A DNA stretch of 64,000 nucleotides from Aigarchaeota archaeon. GTDB taxonomy: Archaea > Thermoproteota > Nitrososphaeria_A > Caldarchaeales > Calditenuaceae. The number at the start of each line of letters is the position of its first letter. Position 1 is the stretch's first letter. The stretch covers positions 297,783 to 361,782 of the forward strand of contig JANXDH010000004.1 in NCBI GenBank assembly GCA_025059745.1. Direction: 5' to 3'. Below the pieces are notes generated by a model. It had not been told where the DNA came from, searched no databases, and was given only the letters and a program-made list of their open reading frames with translations. A program made the position numbers and the translations under genes. Positions 13,186 to 47,454 of the stretch are shown in pieces.

Positions 13186-13901
13186 CGGATAAACCATCGA
13201 AGAAAGTCTTACTCACTAAGAACGAGGAGCTCGACAAGAGGATCGGCGGGATCCCCCTACCCTCGTTGGTGGTGATAGAGGGGCCGAACGACTCGGGGAA
13301 GAGCGTCCTGGCCCAACAGATGATATACGGCGGGTTGGAGTGCGACCTGAGGATATGCTACATCTCGTCCGAGGGGAGCGGCAGCTACATACTGTCTGCG
13401 ATGGAGAACCTCGGTTTCAACGTCAAGGGACATTACCTATCGGGCAGGCTGGGACTGATCTCCCTACACGTGAAAGGGATGGAGTGGGCACCCGAGGTTG
13501 CCAAGGAGGCGCTGTTCCTCCTGGTAAATTACTTCAAGAGGAAGTCGAAGAAATACGACCTATTTGTCGTGGACTCGTTGACCCTCCTCTTCACCAAGGT
13601 AGACGACAACTCAGTCTTGAACTTCCTCTCGGAGGTACGGAGGCTCATAGACGACGAGAACTTCTCGTTCATCTTCACCTTACATCATTACGCGCTTAAT
13701 CAGGAACAGCTCGTCCGGATAAGGTCGATATCCGATACTCACTTCCAGCTCGCGGTCAAGGAGATGGGCGAGAAACTGATAAGGATACTCGAGGTACTGA
13801 AGGTGAGAGGCGCGACAAAACCGTCGTCCTTCCTCCTAAGCTTCGAGGTCGACAGTAACTTCGGGATAAAGGTTCTCCCCTTCACTCAGGTGAGGCTATG
13901 A
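13182..13901 (+). CDS. arlH: archaellum motor ATP-binding protein ArlH
   Basis: ArlH is a RecA/KaiC-like protein that binds ATP without strong hydrolysis and forms a ring under ArlI in the archaellum motor. The protein has 239 residues. The P-loop GPNDSGKS lies at 34-41 and the Walker B strand is KYDLFVVDSLTLLF near 124-137. The start GTG at 13182 overlaps the arlF stop. An ATG 21 nt upstream is also in frame but lies inside arlF. Its stop overlaps the arlI ATG (ATGA). ArlH is not found in simple type IV pilus systems, so it supports the archaellum reading of the operon. Confidence 0.88.
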   Translation: MTDKPSKKVLLTKNEELDKRIGGIPLPSLVVIEGPNDSGKSVLAQQMIYGGLECDLRICYISSEGSGSYILSAMENLGFNVKGHYLSGRLGLISLHVKGMEWAPEVAKEALFLLVNYFKRKSKKYDLFVVDSLTLLFTKVDDNSVLNFLSEVRRLIDDENFSFIFTLHHYALNQEQLVRIRSISDTHFQLAVKEMGEKLIRILEVLKVRGATKPSSFLLSFEVDSNFGIKVLPFTQVRL

Positions 13902-16855
13902 GCCTCGAGGAGCTAGAGGAGTTATTGACCGAGAACCCACACCTCAGATCCTATCTAGAGTCCTATGTATCGGAGGGCAACCAGTTCCCGCTCTACGTGA
14001 CCCAGCTCTCAAGGGATTTACGGGAACTTCACGAGGTAAACGTGCTCTATCCCATCGGTGACCCGTACTTCATCCACATAGTCAGCTCACCTGGCACCTA
14101 CTGGAAGTCGTACTCAGTCATCAGTCCGGAGGTCCAACCAGAGGCCTACTCCGCGCTGATCTCAGTCGAGGAGGCACTCGCATACCTTTTGGTAGACAAC
14201 CCGGTACCTAAGACGAAGGACGAGAAGGAGGGGCTACTGAGGCAGCTCCTGGATGTGGCGGTGAGGGATGACCACTCTCTCAAGGCGGGAGAGTTCAAGG
14301 TCGTTCGAAGGCGCGGAGTCGTCAAGCACGTCCTCGCGGAACCGGTCCTGTCGAGGGCCCTCAAGCACGTGGTGCTTGTCGAGAAGATAGGACTCGGGAT
14401 AATAGACCCCCTCATCAAGGACCCTTACATAGAGGACATAAGTTGCGACGGCATTGGACCGATATTTATCGAGCACAAGGTCTTTGGGAGCTGCAAGTCC
14501 AACATAGTCCTCAAGACGGTCGAGGATGTGGACCTCCTGATCGCGCGTCTCGCGGAGAGGTCTGGGAGACCTGTCACGGTCAGGTCACCCATAGCAGATG
14601 CGACGTTACCGGATGGTTCGAGGATCAACGTGATCTACGGCAGCGACATCAGTAGGCGCGGATCGAACTTCACCGTAAGGAAGTTCGCTGACACGCCAAT
14701 AAGCATAACTCAGCTGATAAAGTGGGGCACACTCAGCTCACTAGAGGCGGCGTATCTCTGGTTCCTCTTAGAGTACGGGCTGAACATATGGTTCATCGGT
14801 GAGACCGCCTCGGGTAAGACGACGCTCCTGAGGGCGGCCTGCGCATTCATAAAACCGACTGCTAAGATAGTGTCCATAGAGGACACCCCTGAGATAGTAG
14901 TACCTCATGAGAACTGGATAAGCGAGGTCACAAGGTCCGGACAGGACGGGACCGAGAAGGTCGACCTCTTCGACCTCCTCAAGGCCGCGCTGAGGCAGAG
15001 ACCTAACTACATCATAGTGGGCGAGATAAGGGGGAAGGAGGCCGCGATCGCATTCCAAGCGATGCAGTGCGTGGAGGACGCGTACGTGGCGACCCCCTCG
15101 GGTGTGATCAAGATCTCCTCCCTCTACTCGCAGTTTGGTCGCGATACGGACTCTGAGCTGGTGAACCTGCCTTACCCGGTAATGGTCTACGTGACGAGAC
15201 CGAACGGGACGCTGACCCTCTCGAGGTGCATCGGGATCAAGCGTATGCGTTCGAGTCAGTTGGTACGCGTCAGGTTCAGCGATGGAGGCGAGCTCAGGGT
15301 CACTCCCAATCACAAATTCATAATGACCGATGGGAACGGAGAGTACGAGATCACCGCATCAGAGCTCCTGGCCTCATGGGAGGCGGGACGGAGGGGACTG
15401 AGGCTAGCGATTAGAGGTCCCCCGATGATAAGTGAAGCCTCTAACGGATCTGAGTCGTTCTACATACCGGCAAACCACCCGGAGCTCTGGTGGATGGTAG
15501 GCAGGCTGGCGGGAGGGGACGTGATCACCAAGAACGGCGGCAGGTACGTATGGGTCTCCGACGTCAGATCGAAAGGTGAGTTCGACAGGTTGAGGAAGGC
15601 GATAAAACGAGTATACCCGAGCGTGAACCTGAGGGTCAGGCCTAAGAGGAACGCGCTGAGGGTGAACATGAGGAACGTCCCCCCACAGTTGATACACTGG
15701 TTGATGATGAACGGCCTCCTCGTTGAGTGTGGGAGCGTTATGGTAGGATCTTCCACAGGTCTGGACAGGAGATTCGAGGCTCAATTCAGAGAGGGGATGT
15801 TGAGCGCGATGGAGGTGAGCGGGGGTACCAACAAGCTCAGGTCCGAGAGCAAGATGGAGGGCGCGATACAGGTAGCGTATAACCTATCGAGCCTCGGCCT
15901 CAACGGCAACTCTTACCTGAAGATCTACGCTGGATACGGCATCCCGGACGATAGGCTCTCCAGACTCTTGACAGTTATAGATAACCTGTCCATCAGATGC
16001 GACCTGAGGAGGGTATCGACGATCAGGGGGATGTCCCTGAGGTTCAGGACGAATAAGAAGGACTGCGAGGCGGAGGACGTCGGCGGTACGTGCCTCGGGG
16101 ACCTTCACGAACTAGAGTATTCTACAGAGGAGGACGGCGACCAACAGAGGATCCCGGTAACCTACTGGGTCAAGGGGAGCCGCGTGGCGGTCTTCTCTGA
16201 GGGCAAGAGAGTCTACACGTACTTCAACCCGCCCAACGCAGTCTACGTAACTGATGTTAAACCATCAGAAGGCTCATACGTCTACGACTTGGTGATAGAG
16301 GGAGGAGGTTACTACATAGGTGGTCTGGGGACTTCAATACCCATCGAGGACACGGGACACGGTGTGATATCGACCTTCCACGCCGGATCGGTACAGAAAC
16401 TCATTCAACGATTGACCGGAGACCCGATCGAGATACCCAAGACCTTCGTTGATAACCTGAACTCGGTAGTGATACAGAGCGCGGTGAGGGTACCGAAGAC
16501 TGGGAAGCTGGAGAGGCGCGTGCTGTCGATCAACGAGATCATAGGACTGGACCCGGAGACCCAGGGGATCAACTTCATCGAGCTATTCAGCTGGGAGCCG
16601 ACCCACGACGCTCACGAGTTCAGGGGGGAGGGCACCAGTTACGTGCTTGACAACAAGATCTCGGTCCTGAGGGGCCTCAGCAGGCGAGAGGTGAAGAGGA
16701 TCTACGCGGAGCTCCGCGAAAGGGCGCGGTTCCTAGAGACCCTGATAGGGGCTGGCGTCATGGACTACTACCAGACATTCAGGCTGATCTCGATCGCGAC
16801 CCAGAGGGGGATAGGAGAGGCTCTTCAGGTACTGAGGGAGGGGGTCTCTGCTTAA
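13898..16855 (+). CDS. arlI: archaellum motor ATPase ArlI, intein-containing
   Basis: ArlI is the hexameric secretion-type ATPase that assembles and rotates the archaellum. The precursor has 985 residues and becomes a 557-residue protein, a normal ArlI length, after removal of a 428-residue intein. Walker A GETASGKTT is near 300-308 and Walker B IIVGEIRG near 375. The conserved AFQAMQ/TGHGV...TFHA segment is interrupted by the intein between Gln390 and the Thr. Downstream, VQKLIQRLTGDPIEIPKTF and VDNLNSVVIQSA match crenarchaeal ArlI closely, as I recall that family. The ATG overlaps the arlH stop. The intein has its own entry. Confidence 0.93.
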   Translation: MSLEELEELLTENPHLRSYLESYVSEGNQFPLYVTQLSRDLRELHEVNVLYPIGDPYFIHIVSSPGTYWKSYSVISPEVQPEAYSALISVEEALAYLLVDNPVPKTKDEKEGLLRQLLDVAVRDDHSLKAGEFKVVRRRGVVKHVLAEPVLSRALKHVVLVEKIGLGIIDPLIKDPYIEDISCDGIGPIFIEHKVFGSCKSNIVLKTVEDVDLLIARLAERSGRPVTVRSPIADATLPDGSRINVIYGSDISRRGSNFTVRKFADTPISITQLIKWGTLSSLEAAYLWFLLEYGLNIWFIGETASGKTTLLRAACAFIKPTAKIVSIEDTPEIVVPHENWISEVTRSGQDGTEKVDLFDLLKAALRQRPNYIIVGEIRGKEAAIAFQAMQCVEDAYVATPSGVIKISSLYSQFGRDTDSELVNLPYPVMVYVTRPNGTLTLSRCIGIKRMRSSQLVRVRFSDGGELRVTPNHKFIMTDGNGEYEITASELLASWEAGRRGLRLAIRGPPMISEASNGSESFYIPANHPELWWMVGRLAGGDVITKNGGRYVWVSDVRSKGEFDRLRKAIKRVYPSVNLRVRPKRNALRVNMRNVPPQLIHWLMMNGLLVECGSVMVGSSTGLDRRFEAQFREGMLSAMEVSGGTNKLRSESKMEGAIQVAYNLSSLGLNGNSYLKIYAGYGIPDDRLSRLLTVIDNLSIRCDLRRVSTIRGMSLRFRTNKKDCEAEDVGGTCLGDLHELEYSTEEDGDQQRIPVTYWVKGSRVAVFSEGKRVYTYFNPPNAVYVTDVKPSEGSYVYDLVIEGGGYYIGGLGTSIPIEDTGHGVISTFHAGSVQKLIQRLTGDPIEIPKTFVDNLNSVVIQSAVRVPKTGKLERRVLSINEIIGLDPETQGINFIELFSWEPTHDAHEFRGEGTSYVLDNKISVLRGLSRREVKRIYAELRERARFLETLIGAGVMDYYQTFRLISIATQRGIGEALQVLREGVSA
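15068..16351 (+). mobile_element. intein in ArlI with degenerate homing endonuclease
   Basis: An in-frame 428-residue insertion begins with Cys (CVEDAYVATPSG, block A) and has block B as GGELRVTPNHKFIM with the TxxH motif. Block F is VYDLVIEGGGYYIGG. It ends IPIED before the +1 Thr of TGHG. The last residue is therefore Asp where Asn is usual, with Glu before it where His is usual. The middle holds two LAGLIDADG-like halves, WWMVGRLAGGDV and REGMLSAMEVSGG. The second has lost the usual acidic residue, so the endonuclease is probably inactive. Boundaries are set by the ArlI sequence that closes up when it is removed. Confidence 0.88.
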
Positions 16856-25613: not shown

Positions 25614-26384
25614 GTGCGCGAACTCTCGATACTGAAACTTGGCGGGTCTCTCATAACTGGTAAGGGGGATGACGGGAAGTTCAGGGAGGAGTTGTTGAGG
25701 GAGATAGGGTCGTTGCTTGCGAGAGAGTCGAGGGGGTACTTGATAATAGTTCACGGAGCGGGGTCGATAGGCCATCCCTTGGCTAAGGAGTACAGGTTAG
25801 ATGAGGGATACAGGTCGCCGAGACATCTCGAGGGCTTCGTGAAGACTGTGAACGCCATGAGGGTTCTGAACAGCGAGGTCGTGAGGGTGCTCACGGAGGC
25901 CGGTCTGTTCTCGATAGGGGTCCCCGGGAGTCTGGCGTTTCAGACCAGAAATTACTCCATAGAGAGCGTCGATCTATCGAAATTTATTGCGGCCCTCGAT
26001 ATGGAGCTGGTGCCCGTGACCTGCGGGGACGTAGTATTCGACAGGGTCAGGAAGTTCGCGATACTCTCTGGTGACTCGATGGCGGTGGAACTCGCTACAC
26101 GTCTCCACGCAAAGAGAGTGATCTTCGCTACCGACGTCGATGGAGTCTACAAGCGTTACGGTGACACCTCCTCCCTCATACCCGAGCTCAAGTTGGGCGA
26201 CCACTTGAGGGCCTCCTACGCACCGGTCGATGACGTGACGGGGGGGATGGCATACAAGGTTGAGGTCGGTTTCGAGGCCGCGAAGGCTGGCGCGGAGGTC
26301 TTGATAGTGAACGGTCTCCATCCCGAGAGGATCGTGAGGGCACTCAGGGGTGAAAGGGTGATGGCGACGAGGCTGGTCACTTGA
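25614..26384 (+). CDS. ipk: isopentenyl phosphate kinase
   Basis: This kinase of the amino-acid-kinase fold makes isopentenyl diphosphate from isopentenyl phosphate in the archaeal mevalonate route. The 256-residue protein starts RELSILKLGGSLITGKG (phosphate-binding loop) and has IVHGAGSIGHPLA with the catalytic His, the hallmark that separates this family from other kinases of the fold. ATDVDGVYKRY and DDVTGGMAYKVE close the nucleotide site. It starts at GTG about 30 nt after a TATA-like TTTTATACC at 25577-25585. Its stop overlaps the next gene (TTGA). Confidence 0.92.
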   Translation: MRELSILKLGGSLITGKGDDGKFREELLREIGSLLARESRGYLIIVHGAGSIGHPLAKEYRLDEGYRSPRHLEGFVKTVNAMRVLNSEVVRVLTEAGLFSIGVPGSLAFQTRNYSIESVDLSKFIAALDMELVPVTCGDVVFDRVRKFAILSGDSMAVELATRLHAKRVIFATDVDGVYKRYGDTSSLIPELKLGDHLRASYAPVDDVTGGMAYKVEVGFEAAKAGAEVLIVNGLHPERIVRALRGERVMATRLVT

Positions 26385-26914
26385 CGGACTCCCAATGCAG
26401 GGTCATGGTGATCGGGAGGGGGCCGATCGATGAGGGAGATTACGTGATCAAGATTTACTCTGAGGGACCGAGAGTTAAAGACCCATCCTCAGACGAGGTA
26501 GAGGCCGATCTATCGAGGTTACCCTTCAGGCTCGAATCGTTTGATGCGGTTACCGTTTGGGGGGATAACTTAGAGGAGGTCGAGTTATTAGAGATCAACA
26601 GGGTCCTCAAACACGGTGAGAAATTGACCGTGCTCTCAAGGTCCTCAATTTTAGAACTTGAGCATGAGATGGTACAGGCCGGTTTCTCGAGCTCAGGGTA
26701 CAGGGAACTCATAATAGAGGACGACCCGGTCAAGGCTCTCGATTTTCGTAAGACGTGGCGACGCTACTATCCCGATATCTGTCCCCACTGTGGAGGCAAG
26801 AAGATACTCCCGCTCATACCCATCGATAGCAGGGCGACCAAGACCTGGAGTGTCTACTGTAGCTCCTGTTCCTATAACTGGAGCGTGGTGGAACCGATAG
26901 GGAGAGTGGAATAA
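26381..26914 (+). CDS. methyltransferase-like core fused to zinc ribbon, unknown function
   Basis: This 177-residue protein starts at TTG overlapping the kinase stop. Residues 35-90 (DLSRLPFRLESFDAVTVWGD, then EVELLEINRVLKHGEKLTVL) look like the second half of a class I SAM-methyltransferase fold, but the glycine-rich SAM loop is missing. The C-terminus is a zinc ribbon, CPHCGG...CSSCSYNW (about 133-165). I do not recognise the family. It may bind a partner or nucleic acid rather than methylate. It lies just upstream of the ubiquitin-like gene but has a separate promoter between. Confidence 0.55.
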   Translation: MTDSQCRVMVIGRGPIDEGDYVIKIYSEGPRVKDPSSDEVEADLSRLPFRLESFDAVTVWGDNLEEVELLEINRVLKHGEKLTVLSRSSILELEHEMVQAGFSSSGYRELIIEDDPVKALDFRKTWRRYYPDICPHCGGKKILPLIPIDSRATKTWSVYCSSCSYNWSVVEPIGRVE

Positions 26915-26988
26915 GCGTGTTGTCAAGGGGTTCTGTACGTCTATCATCCGTATGATTTGAATAATGTCGATCAGGACGTTCGGTTATC

Positions 26989-26999
26989 GATTTATACTT
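26989..26999 (+). promoter_or_regulatory. TATA box of ubiquitin-like gene
   Basis: TTTATACT at 26991-26998 has its centre 27 nt before the ATG at 27021. This fits a transcript that begins at the start codon. It argues against the in-frame ATG at 26964, which lies upstream of the box. Confidence 0.7.
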
Positions 27000-27020
27000 G
27001 GAGGTGAGGGGGGCTCTGTT

Positions 27021-27257
27021 ATGCGGATAAAGGTGATACCTCTCATCGGCCCCCACAGGAAGATCGAGCTCGACGTGCACCCCAACACACTGATAAGGCA
27101 CTTCATAGAGCAGGTATGCGACCTGCTGGAGCTGAGGGAGACAAACATTAGGCTCTCATACAACGGTAGGGTACTGAACGAGTTCGCCACTTTTGCAGAG
27201 GAGTCGGCCAAGGAAGAGGAGGCTTACCTGATGTACCCCCAGGGAGAAGGAGGGTAG
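27021..27257 (+). CDS. ubiquitin-like protein with C-terminal Gly-Gly
   Basis: This 78-residue protein has the beta-grasp pattern of ubiquitin: MRIKVIPLIG and IELDVHPNTLIRHFIEQVCD (strand, strand, helix), then NIRLSYNGRVLNEFATFAEE, where the Y-x-G-R-x-L segment recalls the KLIFAGKQL/DG-type loop of ubiquitin, then EAYLMYPQG. It ends exactly in GEGG, so no processing is needed to expose Gly-Gly. From memory, it resembles the Ubl of Caldiarchaeum more than SAMP or Urm1. It could be conjugated to proteins or carry sulphur. No E1, E2 or E3 is in the window. A JAMM protease lies at 47035. The start is fixed by the TATA spacing. Confidence 0.75.
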   Translation: MRIKVIPLIGPHRKIELDVHPNTLIRHFIEQVCDLLELRETNIRLSYNGRVLNEFATFAEESAKEEEAYLMYPQGEGG

Positions 27258-31018: not shown

Positions 31019-31083
31019 GGTATCCTCTGTGTCGACTCGTTAAAAAATGTGTCACGAGACCGTCACTTTCAATCGGCTCACAT

Positions 31084-31093
31084 GCTTATATAT
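31084..31093 (+). promoter_or_regulatory. TATA box of radA
   Basis: CTTATATA at 31085-31092 has its centre 27-28 nt before GTG 31116. This sets the radA start at that GTG rather than at an in-frame upstream codon at 31047. Confidence 0.7.
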
Positions 31094-31115
31094 CCACAAC
31101 CCTCATCGTAGATCG

Positions 31116-33083
31116 GTGAAGCAGAAGATAAAGGAGAAGAAGGACGTTTTTACGGACATCTCGGAGCTACCGGGAGTGGGACCTGCTACCGCTGAGAAGC
31201 TGAAGGAGATCGGGTATTCGACTATAGAGTCGCTGGCGACAGCGACGGTGGCCGAGCTTGAGGTCGCGGGCATAGGAGAGAAGAGGGCCTTAGAACTCAT
31301 CGAGCTGGCGAGGCAGGCGATCGAGGTATCCTGGGTCACGGCGAAGGAGCTGGCGGCCATCAGGAGTAGTGTAGGGAGGCTCTCCACGTCGAGTAAAGCG
31401 CTCGACGCCCTCATAGGTGGCGGTATCGAGACTCAGTCGATAACGGAGTTCTTCGGCGAGTTCGGTTGCCACTCTGCCGATACCCAGGTTCTGACCCCCC
31501 ACGGTGTCAGGGACTGGCGCGAGATCGAGGTCGGAGACGTTGTGCTCGGTGTGGACCGCACGGGTCGTCTGACCGAGTCAAAGGTGAAGAGGGTATACGT
31601 CTATCACTACATCGGCCCTATGATGCACCTCGTCTCGGGTGAGTACGATCTCTTGGTTACCCCGAATCACAGGATGGTCTTCAAACCAGCCTGCTCCCTG
31701 ATGCCCTACCGCTACGTTCCAGCGGCGACCGTTGCTGAGTTTTCATCGGGCAGCCTGATGTCTCGCTTCGTATACGAAGGCTACACCGCGCCCGAGCGTC
31801 TAGAGGTCCACAATTGCCCCGGGCTGAGGCTCCCAGAGGACGCGGACCGTCTGAGGACCGATCGCTTGCTCAGATTAATCGGCCTCTATATTTCCGGCGG
31901 ATTCATACATAGGCTCAACGATGAGGAGCGCGTCGCGATACGTACCGATGGCTCGATCGAGCTGGCGAGGCAATATCTGGAAGATCAGAGGATGAGTTTC
32001 AGGGTTGACGGCGACATGGTGATCATCGACGAGCAGTGGCTCACCGAGTACTTAAAGATCTACGGTACCGCGGGAGAGGACAAGACCATCCCGTCGGAGG
32101 TACTCTCGATGGATAGGAGGCACTTGAGCGTTATCTTCGAGACTCTGGTGAGACGGTCGGGGAGTGGCGACCGGTTCGTCTATCGGACTAAGTCAAGGAG
32201 GATGAGGGACGCCATGCTACTGCTGGGCCTAAAGCTGGGTTACACGGCCAGTTTCATCACCAGGGAACTGCCCTCCTCCGGTCGTGAGACGTACGAGATG
32301 TACTTTACGGGAGGCCATGGAGGCCACTGGGAACGCAGCAGTAACCTCGAGGCCGTGCAGTACCGGGGTACCGTCTGGTGTCTCGAGACTTCGACGGGAA
32401 ACTTCTTTACCGTGAGGAACGGCACGGTATCGTTCTCTGGCAACTCGGGCAAGAGTCAGATGTGTCATCAGTTATGCGTGAACGTCCAGATGCCCCCTGA
32501 GAAGGGGGGTCTCGGAGGAGCGGCCCTCTACATAGACACCGAGAACACGTTCAGGATCGAGAGGATCGAGCAGATGGCTAAAGCTGCGGGCCTCGACTTT
32601 GATGAGGTCGCCGAGAGGATCATCTACTCCGAGGCCTACAATTCGGACCACCAGATACTTCTACTCGAGAAGGCTGACAAGATAATAAAGGAGAACAACG
32701 TCAGGTTGGTAGTCATAGACTCCCTGACCGCGCACTTCCGTAGCGAGTACACCGGGAGGGAGATGTTGGCGGAGCGTCAACAGAAGCTGAACAAGCACAT
32801 GCACAGGCTTGGCAGGCTCGCGAGGGCCTTCAACCTGGTAGCTGTGGTGACGAACCAGGTGATGGCGCGCCCCGACGAGTTCTTCTCGCCGATAGCAGTC
32901 TCACCTGTCGGAGGCCACATAGTCGGCCACACCAGCCACACTAGGCTACACATAAGGAAGACCTCGGGGAAGAACGTAAGGGTAGTGAGACTGGTCTCCA
33001 GTCCTTACCTCCCGGAAGGTGAGGTTCTTATTAAGATTACCGAGAAAGGAATAGAGGACGCGGACGTCCCGGAGAAGCGATAG
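31116..33083 (+). CDS. radA: DNA repair recombinase RadA, intein-containing
   Basis: RadA is the archaeal RecA/Rad51 strand-exchange protein. The precursor has 655 residues. Removing a 326-residue intein leaves 329 residues, the usual RadA length. Residues 9-60 hold the helix-hairpin-helix domain (LPGVGPATAEKLKEIGYSTI, GIGEKRALELIE). The P-loop GEFG/SGKSQMCHQL is split by the intein after GEFG. Walker B is VRLVVIDSLTAHFRSEY. VVTNQVMARPDEFF and PVGGHIVGHTSHTRL follow as in RadA. The GTG start is fixed by the TATA box. Ribosomal genes follow 55 nt downstream with their own promoter. Confidence 0.96.
   Translation: MKQKIKEKKDVFTDISELPGVGPATAEKLKEIGYSTIESLATATVAELEVAGIGEKRALELIELARQAIEVSWVTAKELAAIRSSVGRLSTSSKALDALIGGGIETQSITEFFGEFGCHSADTQVLTPHGVRDWREIEVGDVVLGVDRTGRLTESKVKRVYVYHYIGPMMHLVSGEYDLLVTPNHRMVFKPACSLMPYRYVPAATVAEFSSGSLMSRFVYEGYTAPERLEVHNCPGLRLPEDADRLRTDRLLRLIGLYISGGFIHRLNDEERVAIRTDGSIELARQYLEDQRMSFRVDGDMVIIDEQWLTEYLKIYGTAGEDKTIPSEVLSMDRRHLSVIFETLVRRSGSGDRFVYRTKSRRMRDAMLLLGLKLGYTASFITRELPSSGRETYEMYFTGGHGGHWERSSNLEAVQYRGTVWCLETSTGNFFTVRNGTVSFSGNSGKSQMCHQLCVNVQMPPEKGGLGGAALYIDTENTFRIERIEQMAKAAGLDFDEVAERIIYSEAYNSDHQILLLEKADKIIKENNVRLVVIDSLTAHFRSEYTGREMLAERQQKLNKHMHRLGRLARAFNLVAVVTNQVMARPDEFFSPIAVSPVGGHIVGHTSHTRLHIRKTSGKNVRVVRLVSSPYLPEGEVLIKITEKGIEDADVPEKR
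31467..32444 (+). mobile_element. intein in the RadA P-loop
   Basis: A 326-residue in-frame insertion begins with Cys (CHSADTQVLTPHG, block A), has block B YDLLVTPNHRMVF, and ends TVSFSGN before the Ser of SGKS. The last residue is the usual Asn, although the one before is Gly instead of His. Block F reads VWCLETSTGNFFTVRNG. The middle has two faint LAGLIDADG-like parts (LLRLIGLYISGGFI and FETLVRRSGSGDRFVY) without the acidic residues, so the homing endonuclease is probably dead. Insertion in the RadA P-loop at GEFG/SGK is a known intein site in Pyrococcus, as I recall. Confidence 0.92.
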
Positions 33084-47034: not shown

Positions 47035-47454
47035 GTGCTGAAGATCCCGAAGACAGTCCTCGATGGGGTGATATCGAGCGTGGAAGCCTCCTATCCTGAG
47101 GAGGGTTGCGGCCTCCTCGTAGGTTTCATCGACAGAGGCGTCAGGGTCGTAACTACATCGATCGCTACTCGGAACACCTACTCAAAGTCTAGGCGCAACC
47201 GTTACGCAATCGACCCATTGGAGTACATGAGAGTGGAAGAGGCCGCAATCAAAGACGGACGCCAGGTCATCGGAGTCTTCCACAGTCACCCTGACTCACC
47301 TGCCGTGCCGAGCAGATATGACACAGAGTACGCCCTACCGCTCTTCACCTACCTCATAATCTCGGTGTGGAGGGGGAGGGCGGAGCAGGTGATGGCCTGG
47401 CAGTTGGACGAGGTGAGGGGCGAATTCTTTCAAGAGAGGATAGAGGTAACCTAA
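47035..47454 (+). CDS. JAMM/MPN+ metalloprotease
   Basis: This 139-residue single-domain protein has the complete JAMM zinc site: Glu in YPEEGCGLLVG and GVFHSHPDSPAVPSRYDTE (H-x-H-P-x6-S-x2-D). Such proteins cut isopeptide bonds to ubiquitin-like modifiers, as in archaeal SAMP removal and Rpn11. With a Gly-Gly-ending Ubl at 27021 it is a good candidate for the deconjugating enzyme of the same genome. A sulphur-carrier peptidase is the alternative. It starts at GTG about 25 nt after GTTTTTATCC and overlaps the convergent RNA kinase gene by 4 bp. Confidence 0.9.
   Translation: MLKIPKTVLDGVISSVEASYPEEGCGLLVGFIDRGVRVVTTSIATRNTYSKSRRNRYAIDPLEYMRVEEAAIKDGRQVIGVFHSHPDSPAVPSRYDTEYALPLFTYLIISVWRGRAEQVMAWQLDEVRGEFFQERIEVT

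Follow-up and report, generated by a model that had tools for sequence, protein, structure and literature searches.

The closest described system is that of Caldiarchaeum, for which both the E1-E2-RING cascade and the processing by Rpn11 have been reconstituted (PMC5654768). The Caldiarchaeum Rpn11 and the SAMP-type JAMM protease are separated in their specificity, and neither processes the modifier of the other (PMC6043591). Six Aigarchaeota genomes have been described as encoding Ub-, E1-, E2-, E3- and Dub-like proteins (PMC6053391). In the open-licence literature that we found, only a single ubiquitin is attributed to the Caldiarchaeum-type system, and no mention of a second ubiquitin in Aigarchaeota was found. 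The genome considered here (an assembly of 1.17 Mb, 88.8% complete) belongs to the Calditenuaceae, a family formerly named HR02 in GTDB, within the order Caldarchaeales, the old Aigarchaeota (PMC10547907), which agrees with the original prediction of a Caldiarchaeum relative. The window, that is, the whole stretch of 64,000 nucleotides that was analyzed, corresponds to positions 297783-361782 of contig C3 (C3:297783-361782); positions without a contig name refer to the window. In most Calditenuaceae genera, a conserved and separately encoded second ubiquitin-like protein, here called Ubl2, exists beside the known system.

The Ubl2 gene (27021-27257, plus strand) encodes a stand-alone protein of 78 residues, MRIKVIPLIGPHRKIELDVHPNTLIRHFIEQVCDLLELRETNIRLSYNGRVLNEFATFAEESAKEEEAYLMYPQGEGG, and thus confirms the predicted ubiquitin-like protein ending exactly in Gly-Gly with a free C-terminus. 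The reading frame is real and not a product of chance, since seven other genomes encode orthologues of similar length (110-136 bits), each with a Gly-Gly end, and the dN/dS ratio within the genus g4, where it is not saturated, is 0.06-0.16. Among the Pfam models, Rad60-SLD (PF11976) matched Ubl2 at 25.4 bits, above its cut-off of 23.8, and ubiquitin (PF00240) matched at 24.6 bits, just under its cut-off of 25.4. The ThiS model (PF02597) gave no match up to E = 10, and no match to Ubl2 was obtained with the MoaD/SAMP models of NCBIfam or in a PHROGs search. A profile of the Ubl2 family matched the Caldiarchaeum ubiquitin over its full length (46.7 bits). The AlphaFold2 model of Ubl2 is a predicted ubiquitin beta-grasp (pLDDT 85.1, pTM 0.73), and the best solved structures in a Foldseek search were the Caldiarchaeum ubiquitin-Rpn11 complexes 6fno/6fnn (TM 0.87, E 6.6e-7), after which came structures of SUMO2, ubiquitin, and NEDD8. 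Both the profile searches and the predicted fold bear out the earlier suggestion of a resemblance to the Caldiarchaeum Ubl rather than to SAMP or Urm1; the core is ubiquitin-like and not SAMP-, Urm1- or ThiS-like. The Caldiarchaeum ubiquitin (CsUb; PDB 6fj7, 6fnn, 2mqj) and the canonical ubiquitin of the same genome, Ubl1, share with Ubl2 the ubiquitin-type beta-grasp, a length of 78 residues up to Gly-Gly, and an alignment over the full length, with an identity of 28% to CsUb in the structural match and about 35% to the cell's own Ubl1. Unlike them, Ubl2 is encoded apart from E1, E2, and Rpn11, lacks Arg72, has a proline at position -5, carries no propeptide, and evolves faster.

An alternative in-frame ATG lies upstream of the gene at 26964. 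The shorter, leaderless form is favoured because the orthologues begin at the position of 27021 and because a TATA-like element, TTTATACTT (26991-26999, plus strand), proposed from its resemblance to the consensus and its position, is centred about 26 nt before the start. This element suggests that Ubl2 has its own promoter and a leaderless mRNA. The leaderless state, which had been claimed outright, can be regarded only as likely, since a Shine-Dalgarno-like sequence, GGAGGTGA (27000-27007), is present 13 nt upstream of the start. TATA-like elements also precede the start by about 22-35 nt in most genomes with Ubl2 (the element of locus L070 is located farther upstream), and they fit an own promoter with leaderless or near-leaderless transcription.

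The gene stands alone, as predicted: its neighbours vary among genera, and no ubiquitin-pathway gene adjoins Ubl2 in any of the compared loci of the genera g1, g3, and g4. In g1 and g3, Ubl2 shares IPK and M42-peptidase genes as close neighbours; in g4 it adjoins VKOR/TlpA genes and a LOG-like gene instead. Between IPK and Ubl2 of the window, an ORF at 26381-26914 encodes a protein of 177 aa that carries a zinc ribbon at its C-terminus and has a weakly methyltransferase-like N-terminal part, and its counterpart was not found beside Ubl2 in the other genomes. We rejected a functional link of Ubl2 with this zinc protein or with pyrD, as neither is conserved next to Ubl2. The JAMM protease gene pointed out 20 kb away is real (47035-47454, plus strand), but no specific tie to Ubl2 was found. 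It is desampylase-like, can be assigned to the SAMP-type system, and occurs in 31 of the 44 genomes of the order, so a functional link with Ubl2 was rejected as well. Two further ORFs of the window are unusually long and look intein-containing, namely a pilus-type ATPase (13898-16855, 985 aa) and a RadA-like protein (31047-33083, 678 aa).

The original prediction placed Ubl2 in a dispersed Caldiarchaeum-type route, of which it would be the ubiquitin. This was rejected, because Ubl1 and its enzymes are encoded on the same contig as Ubl2, with E2, E1, Ubl1, and Rpn11 46-58 kb downstream. In particular, the E2 gene (C3:370994-371491; UQ_con, 90.8 bits) is followed by an E1 (from about C3:371475) that has a ubiquitin-like domain at its C-terminus and by Ubl1, a canonical ubiquitin ending in VGGR (C3:381782-382021), and the set includes a divergently oriented Rpn11-like JAMM gene. 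Two RING proteins, a small one (about C3:60181-60393) and a larger one (about C3:58097-58900), are encoded about 265 kb from Ubl2, which is thus not beside E1, E2, RING or Rpn11 genes. The same contig encodes a UbaA/MoeZ-type E1 with ThiF and rhodanese domains (L085; C3:24834-26018), and two MoaD/SAMP-type proteins are encoded on contigs C2 and C4. The genome therefore has the full known ubiquitin system together with a SAMP-type system, and Ubl2 is an extra ubiquitin. The outcome named beforehand as speaking against the original observation, matches to ThiS/MoaD-type carriers alone in a genome devoid of E1 and E2, did not occur.

A search for ThiF-family E1s, covering the genomes with Ubl2 other than G010 and G011, found two clear members, one of the ubiquitin type and one of the UbaA/MoeZ type, in the genome of the window and in most g4 genomes searched; G002 (82% complete) has one, and G009 gave one clear partial match. 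Each genome with Ubl2 has a single E2. Ubl2, if activated, must therefore share an E1. Two variations of the ubiquitin set were observed across the order: Ubl1 ends in GG or GGR in the Calditenuaceae and is often extended past GG in other families (L005:782-1021, L043-L049), and the small RING gene adjoins E1 in other families and is located elsewhere in the Calditenuaceae.

A second ubiquitin-like set was found in the Calditenuaceae genus g2 (L063:5095-10396; also L062, L064, L065, and L066), where it lies among pilus-like genes and consists of a Ubl-E2 fusion (the Ubl part ends in PRPVGG and the E2 domain follows directly), a JAMM protease, an E1 without the C-terminal Ubl domain, and a RING-like zinc protein. 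Outside g2, the search of the other genomes yielded no second E2. Another Ubl-E2 fusion, with the Ubl ending in YLIGG before the E2 domain, is present in a distant Thermoproteota genome (L107:1069-1944). Other ubiquitins of Thermoproteota (L103-L108) have tails of the form MPxxxxGG, and E2-like or E1-like genes lie near some of them; L104 encodes an E1-like protein whose N-terminus carries a ubiquitin-like domain.

Among 44 genomes of the order, the search with the Ubl2 profile recovered eight Ubl2 proteins at 110-136 bits, well separated from the remaining matches, all at 22-48 bits, which are Ubl1 and the g2 fusion. All eight genomes from the genera g1, g3, and g4 encode Ubl2; the relatives among them include two Candidatus Calditenuaceae MAGs and archaeon HR02. 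Ubl2 was found neither in the four genomes of g2 (57-91% complete) nor in the 32 genomes from other families of the order. In a phylum-wide sample of 398 genomes, nothing outside the Calditenuaceae scored above 48 bits. The Ubl2 proteins form one clade (support 98/87, and bootstrap of 93-95 in wider sets). Identity among them falls to about 30%, and ten columns are invariant, including the proline at -5 and both glycines. The dN/dS ratio of Ubl1 within g4, where not saturated, is at most about 0.016; Ubl2 thus evolves faster than Ubl1 and is itself under purifying selection.

In the best tree, Ubl2 is joined to Ubl1, but this node is not firm (88/80). The alternatives, in which Ubl2 groups with the g2 fusion Ubl or with the Ubls of other Thermoproteota, are not rejected (AU p 0.16-0.19), so that Ubl1, as opposed to another archaeal ubiquitin, is no more than the likely ancestor. 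Most likely, judging from these sequences, Ubl2 is a diverged paralogue of archaeal ubiquitin.

Ubl2 also departs from Ubl1 in the C-terminal tail, encoded in the window by positions 27231-27254 (plus strand, MYPQGEGG). The exact Gly-Gly end is kept in all eight orthologues, as is the proline at -5. At the position of ubiquitin residue 72, where all five types of Ubl1 tail seen have arginine (TRTVGG), Ubl2 has Gln, Gly or Glu and never Arg; in the window copy the residue is Gln74. The last trypsin site of window-type Ubl2, Lys64, is distant from the C-terminus. The Ubl2 tails are of three types, YPQGEGG, FPGVVGG, and YPEVMGG, and fit the form hydrophobic-Pro-x-x-x-Gly-Gly of the MoaD/SAMP-type proteins from the same genome and its relatives (LPAVSGG, LPPISGG, VPMIHGG, and similar), the hydrophobic residue of Ubl2 being aromatic; the window copy has no hydrophobic residue at -3. 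When six-residue tails were compared by BLOSUM score, each of the three Ubl2 types scored closer to the SAMP/MoaD tails than did any of 4000 random tails drawn from a simple background. By the same score, the Ubl2 tails are less close to the Ubl1 tails and about as close to the tail of the g2 fusion (LVPRPVGG). A proline near the end is also found in this fusion and, one place earlier than in Ubl2, in other Thermoproteota ubiquitins (MPYNIIGG), all of them accompanied by E2 enzymes. Such tails weaken the proline at -5 as proof of SAMP-type activation, and we treat the Ubl2 tail as a lead, not as proof, for the choice of E1.

The structural basis of E1 choice at residue 72 has been described for eukaryotes. 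Asn574 and Gln576 of yeast Uba1 form part of the pocket for ubiquitin Arg72, for which the eukaryotic ubiquitin E1 is strict, and the E1 of NEDD8 rejects Arg72 (PMC3731359); this gating is known from eukaryotic and not from archaeal E1s. The ubiquitin-type E1s analyzed here carry GN-[VI]-Q, aligned with GNTQ of Uba1, and the UbaA/MoeZ-type E1s have DGQ-[VA]-[ST] at this position. Because Ubl2 lacks Arg72 and the ubiquitin-type E1 keeps the Asn/Gln pair, we infer by analogy that the loading of Ubl2 is more likely the task of the UbaA/MoeZ-type E1 than of the ubiquitin-type E1. NEDD8 and SUMO offer a parallel, as diverged relatives of ubiquitin that differ at the E1-gating residue 72 and keep the fold and Gly-Gly. 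Unlike them, Ubl2 has no dedicated E1/E2 pair that could be found, represents a separate archaeal event, and is a putative modifier. With the SAMP1/MoaD modifiers Ubl2 has in common the tail pattern and possibly the E1, but its core is matched by no ThiS, MoaD or SAMP model and the closest solved structures are ubiquitins.

These observations led us to prefer, at about an even level of confidence, the reading that Ubl2 acts as a further modifier, or as a carrier of sulphur, with a ubiquitin core and a changed tail, loaded by the UbaA/MoeZ-type E1. Under this reading, a diverged relative of ubiquitin, without Arg72 and with a MoaD/SAMP-like tail, would have kept the core and Gly-Gly. It would be made in its mature form, probably from its own promoter, with no need for processing. 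Its terminal glycine would most likely be adenylated by the other E1, of the UbaA/MoeZ type with ThiF and rhodanese domains, and the outcome may be a tag or a thiocarboxylate carrier separate from the Ubl1-E1-E2-RING-Rpn11 route. Both the presumed conjugation or sulphur transfer and the choice of E1 are drawn from sequence and from analogy with the known systems.

The main rival is that Ubl2 serves as an alternative substrate of the ubiquitin-type E1 and the single E2, a second ubiquitin sharing the whole Ubl1 cascade. A ubiquitin-like core would suit such use, the cell's sole E2 is that of the ubiquitin route, and this route is present in the genomes with Ubl2 that were searched. Other archaeal ubiquitins without the tail arginine do occur beside E2 genes, but they have their own, different E1s. 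The absence of Arg72 from Ubl2, while all Ubl1 tails seen retain it, and the conserved Asn/Gln pair of the Arg72 pocket in the ubiquitin-type E1, given the strictness of its eukaryotic counterpart, make a shared cascade unlikely in our view.

We consider it quite improbable that Ubl2 is an unconjugated ubiquitin mimic, which would bind E1, E2, Rpn11 or the proteasome and regulate the ubiquitin route. A stand-alone and faster-evolving gene, for which no dedicated E1, E2 or protease was found, is consistent with such a role; however, the invariance of Gly-Gly and of the proline at -5 across orthologues that have diverged so far would be unexpected for a free end without a function. Slightly poorer still are the prospects of a surviving modifier of another ubiquitin system, for example that of the g2 fusion, which would have lost its E1 and E2. 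Ubl2 and the fusion have similar tails with a common proline at -5, their distributions are complementary (g1, g3, and g4 versus g2), and a common clade of the two is not rejected (AU p 0.16-0.31; 0.16 with all rows), but in the best trees Ubl2 lies with Ubl1, away from the fusion Ubl, and Ubl1 obtains 34-48 bits with the Ubl2 profile, against about 22 for the fusion Ubl. Finally, an ordinary MoaD/ThiS or SAMP-type sulphur carrier misread as ubiquitin-like, to which the tail pattern alone points, was rejected as extremely improbable, since Ubl2 matches none of the respective profiles, is closest in fold and sequence to the Caldiarchaeum ubiquitin, and occurs in a genome that encodes its own MoaD/SAMP proteins.

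Eukaryotes have several ubiquitin-like tags, and their E1s distinguish these by the tail residue at position 72. By extension of the preferred reading, Ubl2 would mean that ubiquitin was divided independently in an archaeal lineage, giving two modifiers whose E1 gating is separate, one (Ubl1) accepted through Arg72 by the ubiquitin-type E1 and the other (Ubl2) rerouted through its tail to the SAMP-type E1, as a hybrid linking the ubiquitin and SAMP pathways; we put this forward tentatively, as a proposal somewhat more doubtful than the activation by the UbaA/MoeZ-type E1 itself. Ubl2 is a hint that ubiquitin gave rise to more than a single tag in archaea, as it did in eukaryotes. Cells with Ubl2, having about two E1s and one E2, provide a minimal setting for how the specificity of modifiers first splits, and Ubl2 offers a test of the overlap between the ubiquitin and SAMP pathways.
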